Positions 8,925 through 16,657 of a stretch of 23,243 nucleotides of DNA are shown here, one piece after another. The position numbers and the translations under genes were made by a program. Below the pieces are notes generated by a model. That model searched no databases and was not told the DNA's origin. It saw nothing but the letters and a program-made list of their open reading frames with translations. Numbering within the stretch: position 1 is the first letter of the stretch; each line of letters begins with the position of its first letter. The DNA is taken from positions 1 through 23,243 of IMG/VR virus record IMGVR_UViG_3300032050_005311, one strand, 5' to 3'. The stretch is from a virus.

Positions 8925-9329
8925 TTATTCTATTTTACCTTTTTTACCTATGTTATATTTAGCAATCAATTCCCAATCATCCTTTTCTTTGAAAGCAATG
9001 ATCTTGATTTGATGAATTGGTGCCATATTATGTTCTACTATATCATAGTTTATAATCTTTAGCAAGCCCCATTCCTCTAATAAATTGGCAATAGCGTTGC
9101 GTCTTTGTATATCATTCTCGGTAATTGTTGATAATTTACCATCTAAAGCAAACAGTTCTTTGAAATGTACGATATAATACTTACCTTGCTTATGCAATAT
9201 GTGGCAAGATTGATATAGTACCTTTTCTTTCCGACTTGAAACACCGATACGTGTCAGTGTCTCACGCACTTTTAGGAAGTCATCTTGTTTAGTCAGGGTG
9301 ACTTCAACGAATTTAGATAAATCAACCAT
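8925..9329 (-). CDS. regA: RegA translational repressor
   Basis: RegA binds the start regions of phage early messages and blocks ribosome loading, including its own and those of clamp-loader genes in T4. This copy has 134 residues (T4 RegA has 122). Recognition rests on the overall pattern FVEVTLTKQDDFLKVRETLTRIG, the central SCHILHKQGKYYIVHFKELFALDG and the RRNAIANLLEEWG helix, plus its exact T4 place directly after gp62. The ATG at 9329 is one base past the gp62 stop, with AGGAAAA in the end of gp62 serving as ribosome binding site. The C-terminus (KKGKIE) is basic. Confidence 0.93.
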   Translation of the reverse strand: MVDLSKFVEVTLTKQDDFLKVRETLTRIGVSSRKEKVLYQSCHILHKQGKYYIVHFKELFALDGKLSTITENDIQRRNAIANLLEEWGLLKIINYDIVEHNMAPIHQIKIIAFKEKDDWELIAKYNIGKKGKIE

Positions 9330-12677: not shown

Positions 12678-12719
12678 AAAAAAAAGTGAAAACACATATG
12701 AATATATATGCTTTCACTT
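12678..12719 (-). terminator. Intrinsic terminator after the helix-turn-helix gene
   Basis: On the minus strand AAGTGAAA (12719-12712) pairs with TTTCACTT (12691-12684). The intervening GCATATATATTCATATGTGT can extend the stem partly, and the arm runs into a T tract (12685-12678). It lies about 20 bases after the HTH stop. It closes a single-gene unit that begins at the promoter at 13105. Confidence 0.8.
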
Positions 12720-12738
12720 CACCCGTTTTCATGCCTTT

Positions 12739-13002
12739 TTAGGCAAATGCTTCTCCACCAAGTGCAGCATGTGCAGCAGCAATCATTGCTTTGGTTGGTT
12801 TACCTAGTTTGTAGTAGGTAATACGACGACCATCGGCAAGAGTTTTCTTGTTGGTGTAGATACAGTAACCCTCAGAACGCAGTTCTTCAATGCGGGCACC
12901 AACATTTACGATACCGAAACGAGCACGTGCCTGTGCAGCAGTCAAGGTATTATAAGGACCATCCTTGGAAAGGAAGTTAAGGATTTTCTGTTTAGCAGAC
13001 AT
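12739..13002 (-). CDS. Small winged helix-turn-helix DNA-binding protein
   Basis: An 87-residue protein that looks like a compact winged HTH of the kind found in many phages (HTH_39-like). Helix 1 is AKQKILNFLSKDG, helix 2 and the recognition helix are LTAAQARARFG and VNVGARIEELRSEGY, and the wing is CIYTNKKTLADGRRITYYKLG. An alanine-rich tail follows (TKAMIAAAHAALGGEAFA). The ATG at 13002 has GGAG 11 bases upstream. The gene forms its own unit: a perfect consensus promoter, a leader that can fold into a pseudoknot, the gene, then a strong terminator. A transcription regulator is the natural reading, but its targets are not visible. Confidence 0.85.
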   Translation of the reverse strand: MSAKQKILNFLSKDGPYNTLTAAQARARFGIVNVGARIEELRSEGYCIYTNKKTLADGRRITYYKLGKPTKAMIAAAHAALGGEAFA

Positions 13003-13024
13003 TCAAATTACTCCATAAAAAAAT

Positions 13025-13068
13025 AGTCGCACCAAGATAAACAATTTGTAGAGGCGACTTTTCTCTAC
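13025..13068 (-). promoter_or_regulatory. Candidate H-type pseudoknot leader of the helix-turn-helix gene
   Basis: On the minus strand GTAGAG (13068-13063) pairs with CTCTAC (13053-13048). The loop holds AGTCGC (13059-13054), which pairs with GCGACT (13030-13025) downstream. The geometry is a standard H-type pseudoknot: stem 1 six pairs, loop 1 AAA, stem 2 six pairs, no spacer between stems, loop 3 of 17 A/U-rich bases. ATTTTTTT and then the GGAG ribosome site follow. The predicted transcript start (about 13070) is at its first base. An alternative is a simple AGTCGC/GCGACT hairpin plus T7, acting as an attenuator. Confidence 0.5.
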
Positions 13069-13076
13069 ATATTGTT

Positions 13077-13105
13077 ATTATATAAAAAAAGAGAGAGTGT
13101 GTCAA
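13077..13105 (-). promoter_or_regulatory. Perfect consensus sigma70-type promoter inside a terminator (HTH gene)
   Basis: The -35 TTGACA is at 13105-13100, the spacer is 17 bases, and the -10 TATAAT is at 13082-13077: twelve of twelve consensus bases. The -35 box lies in the loop of the terminator hairpin for the AAA ATPase gene, and the terminator's T7 run forms part of the spacer. The expected start is near 13070, giving a leader of about 68 bases for the HTH gene. Confidence 0.85.
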
Positions 13106-13112
13106 CACTCTC
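13084..13112 (-). terminator. Intrinsic terminator after the AAA ATPase gene
   Basis: On the minus strand GAGAGTGT-TGAC-ACACTCTC forms an eight-pair stem with a four-base loop (13112-13093), followed by CT and T7 (13090-13084). This is a textbook intrinsic terminator 24 bases after the ATPase stop. A second possible hairpin, AGGTAA/TTACCT (13136-13115), precedes it. The promoter of the next gene is embedded in it. Confidence 0.85.
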
Positions 13113-13135
13113 CCAGGTAAAGATGAAAGATTACC

Positions 13136-14317
13136 TTAGAAAGGCACCTCTTCAGTCTCATTCACGGCAGGTTTTACTTCTGGTGCAGGTGTAACAGAAG
13201 GATCAATACCAGCATCAACCTTAGTGTACAGATCAAAGAAAGTAACTTTGGTATCAGCATCAAAACGATTCAAGCAATACTCAATTGCTTTTTTCTTGTC
13301 ATTGTAGATACCGAAAGTCTTGACAATGTGTACCAGACGGCGTGTGGAGATAACTTCATCACAGCCACCATCAGCAAACGTGGTACGAATAGCGTTTGCC
13401 CATGTCACAAGATTCTTGGCAAAGGTTGCATCGGAACGACCAGCAGCATCAAGTTCTTTGTTGATGATCTTTTCTTCAATACGTGCGGGTGGCCAATCTT
13501 GTTCCATCGTGTTAGGGAAACGTTCAAGAAATGCTTCGTTCAAAACATTGGTGAACATATACCGACCATCTTCAGAACCTTTACCTTTGGTATTAGCAGT
13601 AGCAAAGATTGTGAAACCAGGCGCAGGTGTAACCAGTTCATTCTTTTTCTTCAGCAAGAATGGTTTGCCCTCAAGAACACGTTGTAGGCAAGAAAGATTT
13701 TGTGCACCGTAATCAATCTCATCAAGGCAGAGTACAGCACCCTGACGAGCAGCAACCGTCACAGGACCATCACGCCATTCCATCTGACCATTGATAAGCA
13801 CATAGTTACCAAGCAAGTCACCTTCATCGGAATCGGGTGTCATTGATACGCAAACGAACTTGCGTTTGGCTTTAGCACAAGCCTGTTCAATAGACATGGT
13901 TTTACCATTACCAGATTGACCAGTAATGAATACAGGAAAGAATTGTTTTGATTGTACAATTGACAACACATCTTCAAAGTTGCCAAAAGGTACATAGTTG
14001 CCATATTGAGAAGGAATTAGATTCTCAATCTCAAGATCAGTTGTCACATTAGTAATACGATGGCTTTCAGTAGGAGTTGGTTTAGCCATAGGGATTACTT
14101 GTGCAGTCATTTGTATTGCTGGTGAGTCACCAGAGACACCAGGAACACGGAACAGACCACGTTTGATACGGTACGATTCATCTTTGGTGAACCATTGTGG
14201 CCACTTCAGGCCAGTTTGTTCCACGATATCACGGATATCGTCAGTAGTAACTTGAGTTTTACCAGTTGCCAGAATAGCATCAATAAATGCTTGGCGTTTC
14301 TCAGCACGTGTTGCCAT
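13136..14317 (-). CDS. MoxR/CobS-like AAA+ ATPase
   Basis: A 393-residue ATPase often labelled CobS (cobaltochelatase subunit) in marine phages. Walker A GQSGNGKT is at 133-140 and Walker B VLCLDEID at 195-202. The MoxR/CobS-type stretch SDEGDLLGNYVLINGQMEWR lies between them, and FTIFATANTKGKGSEDGRY with FLERFPNTMEQDW gives sensor 1 and the arginine finger region. Residues 1-60 look like a separate small helical domain, followed by a proline/threonine linker. The upstream gene encodes a VWA protein. AAA-VWA pairs of this type act as metal chelatases or as chaperones that activate or remodel a protein complex. It has its own consensus promoter, and its ribosome site is GGAG 11 bases before the ATG. 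Nothing else for cobalamin synthesis is in the window, so remodelling seems the likelier job. Confidence 0.88.
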   Translation of the reverse strand: MATRAEKRQAFIDAILATGKTQVTTDDIRDIVEQTGLKWPQWFTKDESYRIKRGLFRVPGVSGDSPAIQMTAQVIPMAKPTPTESHRITNVTTDLEIENLIPSQYGNYVPFGNFEDVLSIVQSKQFFPVFITGQSGNGKTMSIEQACAKAKRKFVCVSMTPDSDEGDLLGNYVLINGQMEWRDGPVTVAARQGAVLCLDEIDYGAQNLSCLQRVLEGKPFLLKKKNELVTPAPGFTIFATANTKGKGSEDGRYMFTNVLNEAFLERFPNTMEQDWPPARIEEKIINKELDAAGRSDATFAKNLVTWANAIRTTFADGGCDEVISTRRLVHIVKTFGIYNDKKKAIEYCLNRFDADTKVTFFDLYTKVDAGIDPSVTPAPEVKPAVNETEEVPF

Positions 14318-14349
14318 AATATAAAATCTCCATCACAATAAGAACTACC

Positions 14350-14378
14350 ATTATAAAATAATCCCACCACTTTGTCAA
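14350..14378 (-). promoter_or_regulatory. Perfect consensus sigma70-type promoter of the AAA ATPase gene
   Basis: TTGACA at 14378-14373, a 17-base spacer, and TATAAT at 14355-14350, all twelve bases matching. The expected start near 14343 gives a 26-base leader with GGAG before the ATG at 14317. The -35 box overlaps the loop and arm of a hairpin that ends the preceding gene. Confidence 0.85.
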
Positions 14379-14386
14379 GTGGCAGG
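14355..14386 (-). terminator. Probable intrinsic terminator after the zincin-VWA gene
   Basis: On the minus strand CCACTT-GACA-AAGTGG (14382-14367) forms six pairs with a four-base loop. Two further C/G pairs lie beyond a small mismatch, and ATTATTTT follows. It is weaker than the terminator at 13112 because the tail is broken by A. Its loop carries most of the -35 box of the next promoter. Confidence 0.55.
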
Positions 14387-14392
14387 ATGTTA

Positions 14393-16657
14393 TCAAACTG
14401 CTATCATACCGATGAATCGTGATACCAGCACACGGCTCACTTGACGATTCTTGGTAAACTTACCAAATGCTTTTGTTAGTGTGGCTGTGGTAACTTTGTC
14501 TGGTGTTTCAATCTCATCATCATCAACACTCAGATCAGTACCACCAGGTATAATGAAGAATGATTCGTAACCAGGATTTTTAGATTCCAGGAACTTATCT
14601 TTCTTCAACATTTTCTGGTACTTACCAATAATTTCACCATACTCATACCGTTGTGTTGGGTCATTACGAACCGCATCAAGGTCTGGAGCAAAGAACCGAT
14701 GACGGATTGCTGACTTGACATGATTATGTGGTGCAAGATAGAAACCAATAATTTTTGCACCAGTAGTCTTGGTCAACCAGTTACCAATCGCAGTACGAAC
14801 ACCATCATCACCAGGAGGAACTGATACTTGTACTTTGGTTTTCTTGTCTACAAAATATACATTCTCAATTCGTGGTGAAAAGTATGTAAAGTGACCCTCT
14901 TCAGTGAAGTATCGGCTGACTTGATCAGCATCACCGTCATGGACCACACACATGTTTACGATGTCCAGATTGTTTACTTGACGAAACTCATTGATCAAAG
15001 GCTGAGAAGCAATCAATGCCTCAGTCAATGGTGTGTTAGACAAAGAATCTGATTCTGGACGATAAAAATGTGTGCCATATCGTGAGTACCGATTGCCATA
15101 TGCATCCATGAGACACAGAATGTTCTTCACTGCTTTAGAAAACTCCGAGTTACTCATCTTAGAATTGATCATCTCACGTAGATATACAGCAGGACAAAGC
15201 ATCTCATTCAAGTTTTCACTGAAGCAACCAGAACTCCAAGAATCAGGTTCATAACGATTCTCTTCAGGGTAATCAATAGAACGAACAGCATCATTGTTAC
15301 CAAAACCATAGGCAGCAAACGGAATGTTTACTTTACGGCAGAATGATGCCAGAATAAGAATCTGTTCATAGGATGAAGATAGATTCTCAGCCATTGAACC
15401 AGACTTGTCTAGCAACAAAACCAAGCCATGTGATTTACCTTTTGGTACACGCATAACTTTTTTGAAGATAGCATCATCAATTTGATATTTGAAGATACGG
15501 CTAACATCAATGTCACCAGTGTCCGATGTTTTTGCTTTAGCAAACTTGTCGGCCGCTTTACGCATCTCAAACTCTTTGGCTAACAATGAAATGAACCGTT
15601 CGTTTTTACGACGGAAATCATTATACAGTCCATTAGCCAGTGATTCATATTCAGGCCGTTGATTCTGGAACTCACGTGTTAGGATTTCTTGTACACGTTT
15701 TGCTGGCGTGATAATCTTTTTCAGATTGGCTTGCGGTATGTTGACATACACGTAGTTACGTGCTTTCTTGTCAATCAAGGATTCTTCATTACGACGGTAG
15801 TTATCGTCCGTTTCACAAGTTGGCTCAAAGTGTTCGCTTGTGCTTTGTGAATCTTTGAAACGATTGATGATATCAGTGAGTTCACCATCTTCACCCTCAC
15901 CATCTTCAGGATTGCCAGATGATTTTGCGTCGGATTCTTTCTCTTGATCACCATCTTCACCATCAGCCTTGGCTTTAGATTTGTTTTTGCCTTGACCATC
16001 AGTTTCGGAATCACCTTCATTTGAGCCAGATTCTACTTCAGCAAGTTCACCATCTTCACTGAAGATAAATGCATCTTGCGGCAATTCAATTTGTGATTGT
16101 TCTTCTTTGGAATATTCCCAAATCTCTTCAGTCAATTTGAGAACTTCTTCCCAAGTTTCACATGCTTGCACACGGTCAACAAAGTCCTGTTCTTTCTCAT
16201 TGAAAGACAATCGCAAAGTGTAACCAGATTTTGTGTATAGATTCAGCCGATCAATGAATGGAAACGAATCCATGTCACGATCTTTGATACCAAAGAAGTC
16301 ACGTTTCATTAGTTCGCCAAAACCATTGACGAATGATTTACGTAAACCAGGGTAGCGGCGTTTCTGACGTTTCTCAATACGTGCATCTTCAACCACATTC
16401 AGGAAGCCTTTGTAGTTGCGACCACGATCATGCACAGCACCGTGCCAACCATCAGCAGGTGTATCAATAGCGTGACCAACTTCATGACCCATCAGTAAGT
16501 CATAAAGATCACCAGACATATCCGTCCAGATAGGACAAGTTAGAATACGATTTTTAGGATCAAACGATGCCGTTTGTGTTTTGGCATGTTGAACAGTAAG
16601 ATTCTCGGTCGCCATTAGTTTGGCAAGGCCGGACTTTTGATTTTGAATGTTGCTCAT
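14393..16657 (-). CDS. Zincin metallopeptidase-like protein with C-terminal VWA domain
   Basis: A 754-residue two-domain protein, the likely partner of the AAA ATPase downstream. Near the N-terminus is the zinc motif HEVGHA (His58, Glu59, His62), with NVVEDARIEKR (87-97) supplying the probable third ligand, as in gluzincin-like VWA proteins. Residues about 199-262 are a highly acidic linker. The VWA domain has the metal-binding MIDAS start LVLLLDKSGSM (Asp417, Ser419, Ser421). NTPLTEALIAS and VVHDGDADQV later may supply the other ligands. No secretion signal is seen. CobT, the chelatase subunit, has a similar acidic linker and VWA, so this is sometimes called CobT-like. Whether the zinc site cleaves anything is unknown. 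The ATG at 16657 has AGGGA upstream. Confidence 0.85.
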   Translation of the reverse strand: MSNIQNQKSGLAKLMATENLTVQHAKTQTASFDPKNRILTCPIWTDMSGDLYDLLMGHEVGHAIDTPADGWHGAVHDRGRNYKGFLNVVEDARIEKRQKRRYPGLRKSFVNGFGELMKRDFFGIKDRDMDSFPFIDRLNLYTKSGYTLRLSFNEKEQDFVDRVQACETWEEVLKLTEEIWEYSKEEQSQIELPQDAFIFSEDGELAEVESGSNEGDSETDGQGKNKSKAKADGEDGDQEKESDAKSSGNPEDGEGEDGELTDIINRFKDSQSTSEHFEPTCETDDNYRRNEESLIDKKARNYVYVNIPQANLKKIITPAKRVQEILTREFQNQRPEYESLANGLYNDFRRKNERFISLLAKEFEMRKAADKFAKAKTSDTGDIDVSRIFKYQIDDAIFKKVMRVPKGKSHGLVLLLDKSGSMAENLSSSYEQILILASFCRKVNIPFAAYGFGNNDAVRSIDYPEENRYEPDSWSSGCFSENLNEMLCPAVYLREMINSKMSNSEFSKAVKNILCLMDAYGNRYSRYGTHFYRPESDSLSNTPLTEALIASQPLINEFRQVNNLDIVNMCVVHDGDADQVSRYFTEEGHFTYFSPRIENVYFVDKKTKVQVSVPPGDDGVRTAIGNWLTKTTGAKIIGFYLAPHNHVKSAIRHRFFAPDLDAVRNDPTQRYEYGEIIGKYQKMLKKDKFLESKNPGYESFFIIPGGTDLSVDDDEIETPDKVTTATLTKAFGKFTKNRQVSRVLVSRFIGMIAV

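Follow-up and report, generated by a model that had tools for sequence, protein, structure and literature searches.

In the T4-like phage represented by the IMG/VR record IMGVR_UViG_3300032050_005311, the mRNA leader of a small wHTH gene harbors a conserved cis-acting RNA, a stacked two-stem H-type pseudoknot whose stem 1 begins 0 to 3 nt past the predicted transcription start. The existence of a conserved pseudoknot in the leaders of such genes is virtually certain. Its most plausible role, held here with about even confidence, is protective: located at the 5' terminus, the fold would shield the end of an early-type phage mRNA, i.e., one transcribed from a host sigma-70 promoter. With respect to the open-licence literature and Rfam 15, this RNA family appears to be undescribed, and the phage group that carries it has no close cultured member. 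The entire stretch of this record that was analyzed (23,243 nt) is referred to below as the window.

A sequence-only reading of the window had proposed a self-contained promoter-leader-gene-terminator cassette around the HTH gene, and all of its parts could be located (Table 1). The same reading had put the transcript start near 13070, in agreement with the perfect sigma-70 promoter found just upstream, which is also kept in near relatives. The +1 positions used throughout, including the start site in the window, are predicted from promoter consensus. The cassette is flanked by CobS/CobT-like genes (PHROG 249 and 459) on one side and by a PHROG 1574 gene on the other. The DNA polymerases of cultured phages share no more than ∼52% identity with that of the phage in question. 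The CobS/CbbQ-like ATPase and the long PHROG 459 protein that adjoin the cassette (13136-16657, minus strand) are present although this phage group is far from the cultured cyanophages.

Table 1. Features of the wHTH cassette and its leader, listed in the direction of transcription
Feature	Position	Strand	Remarks
Terminator of the upstream CobS/CbbQ-like gene	13091..13114	-	10-pair stem and T-tract
Sigma-70 promoter: TTGACA (13105-13100), 17-nt spacer, TATAAT (13082-13077)	13077..13105	-	12/12 consensus matches
Predicted transcription start, A	13070	-	Seventh base past the -10 box; inferred from the promoter
Stem 1, 5' strand TGTAGAG	13063..13069	-	Pairs with 13053-13047; covaries
Loop 1, AAA	13060..13062	-	Read from the sequence
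Stem 2, 5' strand AGTCGC	13054..13059	-	Pairs with 13030-13025; covaries
Stem 1, 3' strand CTCTACA, directly adjoining stem 2	13047..13053	-	Pairs with 13063-13069
Loop 3, A/U-rich, 16 nt	13031..13046	-	Read from the sequence
Stem 2, 3' strand GCGACT	13025..13030	-	Pairs with 13054-13059
T7 run between pseudoknot and ribosome site	13017..13023	-	Not conserved as a T-run
Shine-Dalgarno sequence (SD) GGAG, 10 nt past the pseudoknot	13011..13014	-	Family distance, 7-14 nt
wHTH gene, 87 aa, start ATG 13002	12739..13002	-	Pfam PF14090 (HTH_39); PHROG 4973
Terminator after the wHTH gene	12683..12720	-	17-pair stem and T-tract

Promoter and upstream-gene terminator are combined in one element (13077-13114): the -35 box lies in the loop of the terminator hairpin, and the T-tract doubles as the promoter spacer. 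In the relatives, the arms of this terminator vary with their pairing kept, and the -35 box is unchanged. A terminator-like hairpin is found upstream of 62 of 81 pseudoknot leaders versus 2 of 84 other leaders. The encoded protein is predicted to be a small protein of the DNA-binding type: its AlphaFold2 model is an ordinary winged helix (mean pLDDT, 84.7), and comparison of this model with the PDB returned weak matches (best E value, 0.012), mostly to DNA-binding winged helices.

The pseudoknot occupies positions 13069 to 13025 of the minus strand, 1 nt past the predicted +1, with stem 1 beginning at +2; the order of the leader elements is TGTAGAG-AAA-AGTCGC-CTCTACA-N16-GCGACT-A-T7-AT-GGAG-N8-ATG. 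Re-reading of this strand bore out the coordinates and pairing given previously, as well as the two-stem topology, whereas stem 1 proved to have a seventh pair (T13069-A13047) and loop 3 to be 16 rather than 17 nt long. None of 3,000 dinucleotide shuffles of this leader attained its stem energy, and it is the strongest pseudoknot of its kind on either strand of the entire window; these energies are simple stack sums plus a fixed penalty. However, a competing nested fold (-13.5 kcal/mol; z score, -1.5) has an energy similar to that of the pseudoknot, so that single-sequence folding gives no proof of the latter. In the nested structure of lowest energy, stem 2 is prolonged by loop 1 into the T-run; pairing of loop 1 and stem 1 with the T-run is likewise feasible in place of the pseudoknot (13017-13069, minus strand). 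Contiguous lengthening of stem 2 in this manner is not a conserved trait of the wider family. In 47 of 68 leaders, the stack-sum estimate favors the pseudoknot over the nested fold; only a bonus for coaxial stacking raises this number to 62. Sequestration of the SD by the 3' strand of stem 1 was considered as well and was rejected: by hand, CTCTA in the window could be paired with TGGAG, and the subfamilies with CACCAGAAT and CCCCCAAAT pair poorly with the SD in the same by-hand reading.

The case for the pseudoknot is made by homologous leaders, in which compensatory changes affect both stems. Protein searches of viral contigs for wHTH homologues yielded 167 distinct leaders, which were scanned with a script that seeks two stacked stems in pseudoknot order, those with approximately -20 kcal/mol of stacking or better being counted as strong. 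Strong pseudoknots were found in 86 of these leaders, compared to 32 of 6,680 shuffled sequences (0.5%). The 83 leaders that were kept for family statistics after removal of a few misplaced fits contain 26 different stem 1 pairs and 23 different stem 2 pairs, such as TTGAGAG/CTCTCAA with GGTCTC/GAGACC, ATTCTGGTG/CACCAGAAT with GTCGCA/TGCGAC, and TATAGGAG/CTCTTATG with GAATTGC/GCAATTC (stem 1 and stem 2, respectively). Since these leaders had been chosen by their pairing, two less biased tests were made. In a MAFFT alignment of 29 leaders based on sequence only, 85.2% of the stem cells pair, compared to 68.7% if the sequences exchange their 3' letters at random and 36 to 44% when the partners are slid by 1 to 3 columns. 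In the same alignment, 15 of 16 pairs have changed on both sides, and the covariation score is 0.489 versus 0.22; in alignment A3, 97.3% of stem 2 cells are paired. When presence of the pseudoknot was mapped onto a tree of 139 wHTH proteins, 7 changes were required, as opposed to 46 for shuffled labels. Thus, the stems vary across homologues with compensation and not without it.

By the script, the pseudoknot fills 61 of the 66 rows of one wHTH clade (support, 99/95), and reading by eye, on which part of the clade counts given here and below rests, brings this number to 65. The script missed the leaders L218, L421, L277, and L280, in which the pseudoknot can be seen by eye with a mismatch or a shorter stem. 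In the fifth exception, the contig L026/L340, the -10 box and the whole pseudoknot are absent between the -35 hairpin and the SD, owing to either a deletion or an assembly error. Three leaders on a distant wHTH branch (L394, L395, and L396) also contain a short pseudoknot, possibly an independent gain. In two others (L213:900-1000 and L224:900-1000), a seeming outer stem surrounds stem 1 (GACTT/AAGTC and AGACT/AGTCT, respectively), a three-stem variant. Among the 83 leaders, loop 1 is 1 to 4 nt long and reads AAA or AAC in 53; no bases separate the two stems in 70; and loop 3 comprises 5 to 17 nt, often ending in GT. No unpaired or loop base is invariant among them.

Among the sequences scanned, the pseudoknot is confined to this gene. 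In 2.9 million viral contigs, patterns built on different stem 1 types detected the promoter-pseudoknot-SD arrangement only in front of wHTH genes. This was the case for the TTGAGAG/CTCTCAA pattern, which also added further stem 2 types, and for the pattern AGTCGCCTCTNC with GCGACT, all matches to which precede wHTH genes, besides chance matches in unrelated sequence. Two contigs of ∼172 kb, when scanned, yielded no other pseudoknot following a promoter. A search of the window against Rfam 15 at the gathering threshold revealed no matching family, and a relaxed search of 16 loci returned only weak, unrelated matches. The leader had no match among 50,697 cultured-phage records, and the sole cultured-phage match of the wHTH protein came from Stenotrophomonas phage DLP6 (51% identity); scans of bacterial and archaeal genomes found no wHTH relative.

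The position of the pseudoknot is tied to the promoter. Of the 72 pseudoknot leaders in which a clear promoter can be seen, 62 have the first base of stem 1 at offset 6 to 9 past the -10 box (+1 to +4), and the predicted start in the window lies upstream of the stems. The sister wHTH clade, which was beyond the observations of the sequence-only reading, is without the pseudoknot. Its leaders carry instead a short hairpin, mostly of 5 to 7 pairs, that exists in many compensated versions (e.g., CTTGC/GCAAG, CTTGT/ACAAG, and CTCGT/ACGAG) and starts exactly at offset 7 (+2) in 54 of 72 cases, usually after an A at +1. This hairpin (e.g., in L227, L228, and L219) is itself a conserved leader structure, and we know of no previous description of it. 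The distance to the SD differs between the two clades, being 16 to 27 nt for the hairpin versus 7 to 14 nt for the pseudoknot. The distance to the promoter, and not to the SD, is therefore common to both clades, which indicates that the structure is anchored to the 5' end of the transcript; the replacement of a pseudoknot by a hairpin at an equal promoter distance points to a role at that end. Such structures are rare at other promoters: eight related contigs have ∼55 further TTGACA/TATAAT promoters, of which ∼8 are followed by any 5'-terminal hairpin, mostly a weak or A/U-rich one or one within coding sequence, compared to 6 of 6 wHTH promoters followed by a structure.

A fold anchored to the start, with its first bases paired, its sequence free, and the ribosome-binding site clear, favors protection of the 5' end as the explanation. 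Pairing within a few nucleotides of the predicted +1 and retention of the pairing with freedom of sequence are both characteristic of 5'-terminal mRNA-stabilizing structures, and loops without an invariant base are as expected of a mechanical element. According to works cited in PMC3997798, 5'-terminal stem-loops stabilize mRNAs of Escherichia coli, and the RppH of Bacillus subtilis requires at least two unpaired 5' nucleotides (PMC3997798; see also PMC4227774). By pairing the first nucleotides of the message, the fold would most plausibly act as a structural cap that keeps away those host decay enzymes which depend on a free 5' end (RppH together with RNase E, or RNase J in hosts that possess it). 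The ribosome site 7 to 14 nt downstream would stay single-stranded, and the wHTH message could be expected to be long-lived or highly translated; the decay effect and the identity of the host enzymes are deductions. Several considerations count against such a cap. A simple hairpin would be enough for 5' protection, so that the clade-wide retention of the second stem suggests an extra demand. Presence of the structure at a single gene in each phage would be expected of a specific regulator no less than of a stabilizer, and the location near the start might equally be of use in promoter escape or early transcription.

Because protection leaves the second stem and the gene specificity not fully explained, some weight remains with the main rival, a translational operator, which is a possible if doubtful alternative. 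Here a phage protein (the wHTH protein itself or RegA, both named in the sequence-only reading, or another early protein) would bind the shape of the pseudoknot and block the 30S subunit at the SD 7 to 14 nt downstream, resulting in feedback control like that exerted by gp32 on the pseudoknot of T4 gene 32. The element is indeed gene specific, with one copy per phage, and its spacing from the ribosome site is short and fairly constant in the pseudoknot clade; loop 1 is mostly AAA or AAC, a regA homologue is encoded in the window (8925-9329), and T4-like phages use just such a device (PMC535899, PMC3014915). However, an operator would sit uneasily with the lack of invariant unpaired bases and with the hairpin of the sister clade, whose distance from the SD would make blocking difficult. 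Besides, no UUAAA tract like that of the gp32 operator can be seen by eye downstream of the pseudoknot, inspection of gp32 leaders from four relatives revealed no comparable pseudoknot, and the wHTH model resembles, through weak matches only, winged helices that bind DNA. In a related and rather unlikely scenario, the pseudoknot would be a dedicated protein-bound switch, recognized by its shape at the 5' end of the mRNA, that steers both translation and lifetime, the protein possibly being wHTH itself.

The structure could instead act on translation only, keeping the leader off the ribosome site or providing a ribosome standby site or enhancer, with no effect on decay. The unpaired SD region 7 to 14 nt past the fold fits this explanation, which, however, does not account for the fact that the structures of both clades start a few nucleotides from the predicted transcript start and is thus judged quite improbable. 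Ligand binding pockets of riboswitches need conserved unpaired bases. The sequence-only reading had raised the possibility of ligand sensing, and the size and topology of the leader are similar to those of small-molecule pseudoknot riboswitches like the preQ1 or SAM-II classes. Nevertheless, the absence of such bases across 83 leaders speaks against that suggestion; the structure always precedes the same regulator gene and never a metabolic one, and Rfam gave no relevant match, not even when its threshold was relaxed, all of which makes a riboswitch very improbable.

The hairpin-T7 attenuator proposed at the same time, in which stem 2 alone would terminate transcription at the T7 run unless the pseudoknot formed, fared no better. 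In the window, a T7 run does follow stem 2, and the nested fold carries stem 2 into it. Across the 83 leaders, however, the T-run that follows stem 2 has a maximum length of anywhere between 1 and 7, and of only 1 to 4 in 41 of them; none of 68 leaders has a contiguous stem 2 extension of at least 3 pairs, and stem 2 alone consists of 6 pairs closing a loop of >20 nt, so that an attenuator seems extremely improbable. Finally, recent common descent or DNA-level constraint without an RNA function, which would suit the nearly identical stems of the nearest ∼60 homologues, can be practically dismissed, given that in distant homologues both stems change with compensation while the flanking promoter and loop sequences drift.

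Both stems of the pseudoknot have covaried strongly while nearly all of their letters were rewritten, and the sister clades, with either a pseudoknot or a hairpin at an equal distance from the promoter, amount to a natural experiment. With leaders this short, a direct test in a laboratory host is feasible for the proposal that early phage mRNAs are capped by a 5'-terminal structure. A switch bound by the wHTH protein, if it exists, would represent a further case of viral autoregulation through a pseudoknot and an unusual RNA-related role for an HTH_39 winged helix.

Among the known systems, the leader of gene 32 in phages T4, T2, and RB69 is similar: in this mRNA of T4-type phages, too, the SD is preceded by an H-type pseudoknot whose stems are coaxial (PMC535899, PMC3014915). 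In T4, gp32 nucleates on this pseudoknot and spreads over a UUAAA-rich ribosome-binding site (PMC535899, PMC3014915). In contrast, the wHTH pseudoknot precedes another gene, is located at the predicted 5' end of the transcript, and lies 7 to 14 nt from the SD with no repeats seen, as opposed to a tract of >40 nt with UUAAA repeats; thus, neither the gene 32 context nor the long UUAAA tract over the ribosome-binding site that define a gp32-type operator is found here. With preQ1, SAM-II, and similar riboswitches, the wHTH leader shares a small H-type topology but not conserved pocket bases, a metabolic gene, or an Rfam match. Structured RNAs have been described in other environmental T4-like phages, namely the manA and wcaG motifs in T4-like cyanophages and a glutamine riboswitch in the T4-like methylophage Melnitz (PMC2864571, PMC9004378), from which the wHTH leader differs in structure, gene, and proposed role. 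The 5'-terminal stem-loops of the ompA/papA type similarly place a structure a few nucleotides from +1, need no sequence consensus, and leave the ribosome-binding site free. Unlike these, the wHTH structure is a pseudoknot found in phages at a single gene, for which stabilization is only a proposal, whereas the hairpin of the sister wHTH clade represents exactly the ompA/papA-type arrangement.
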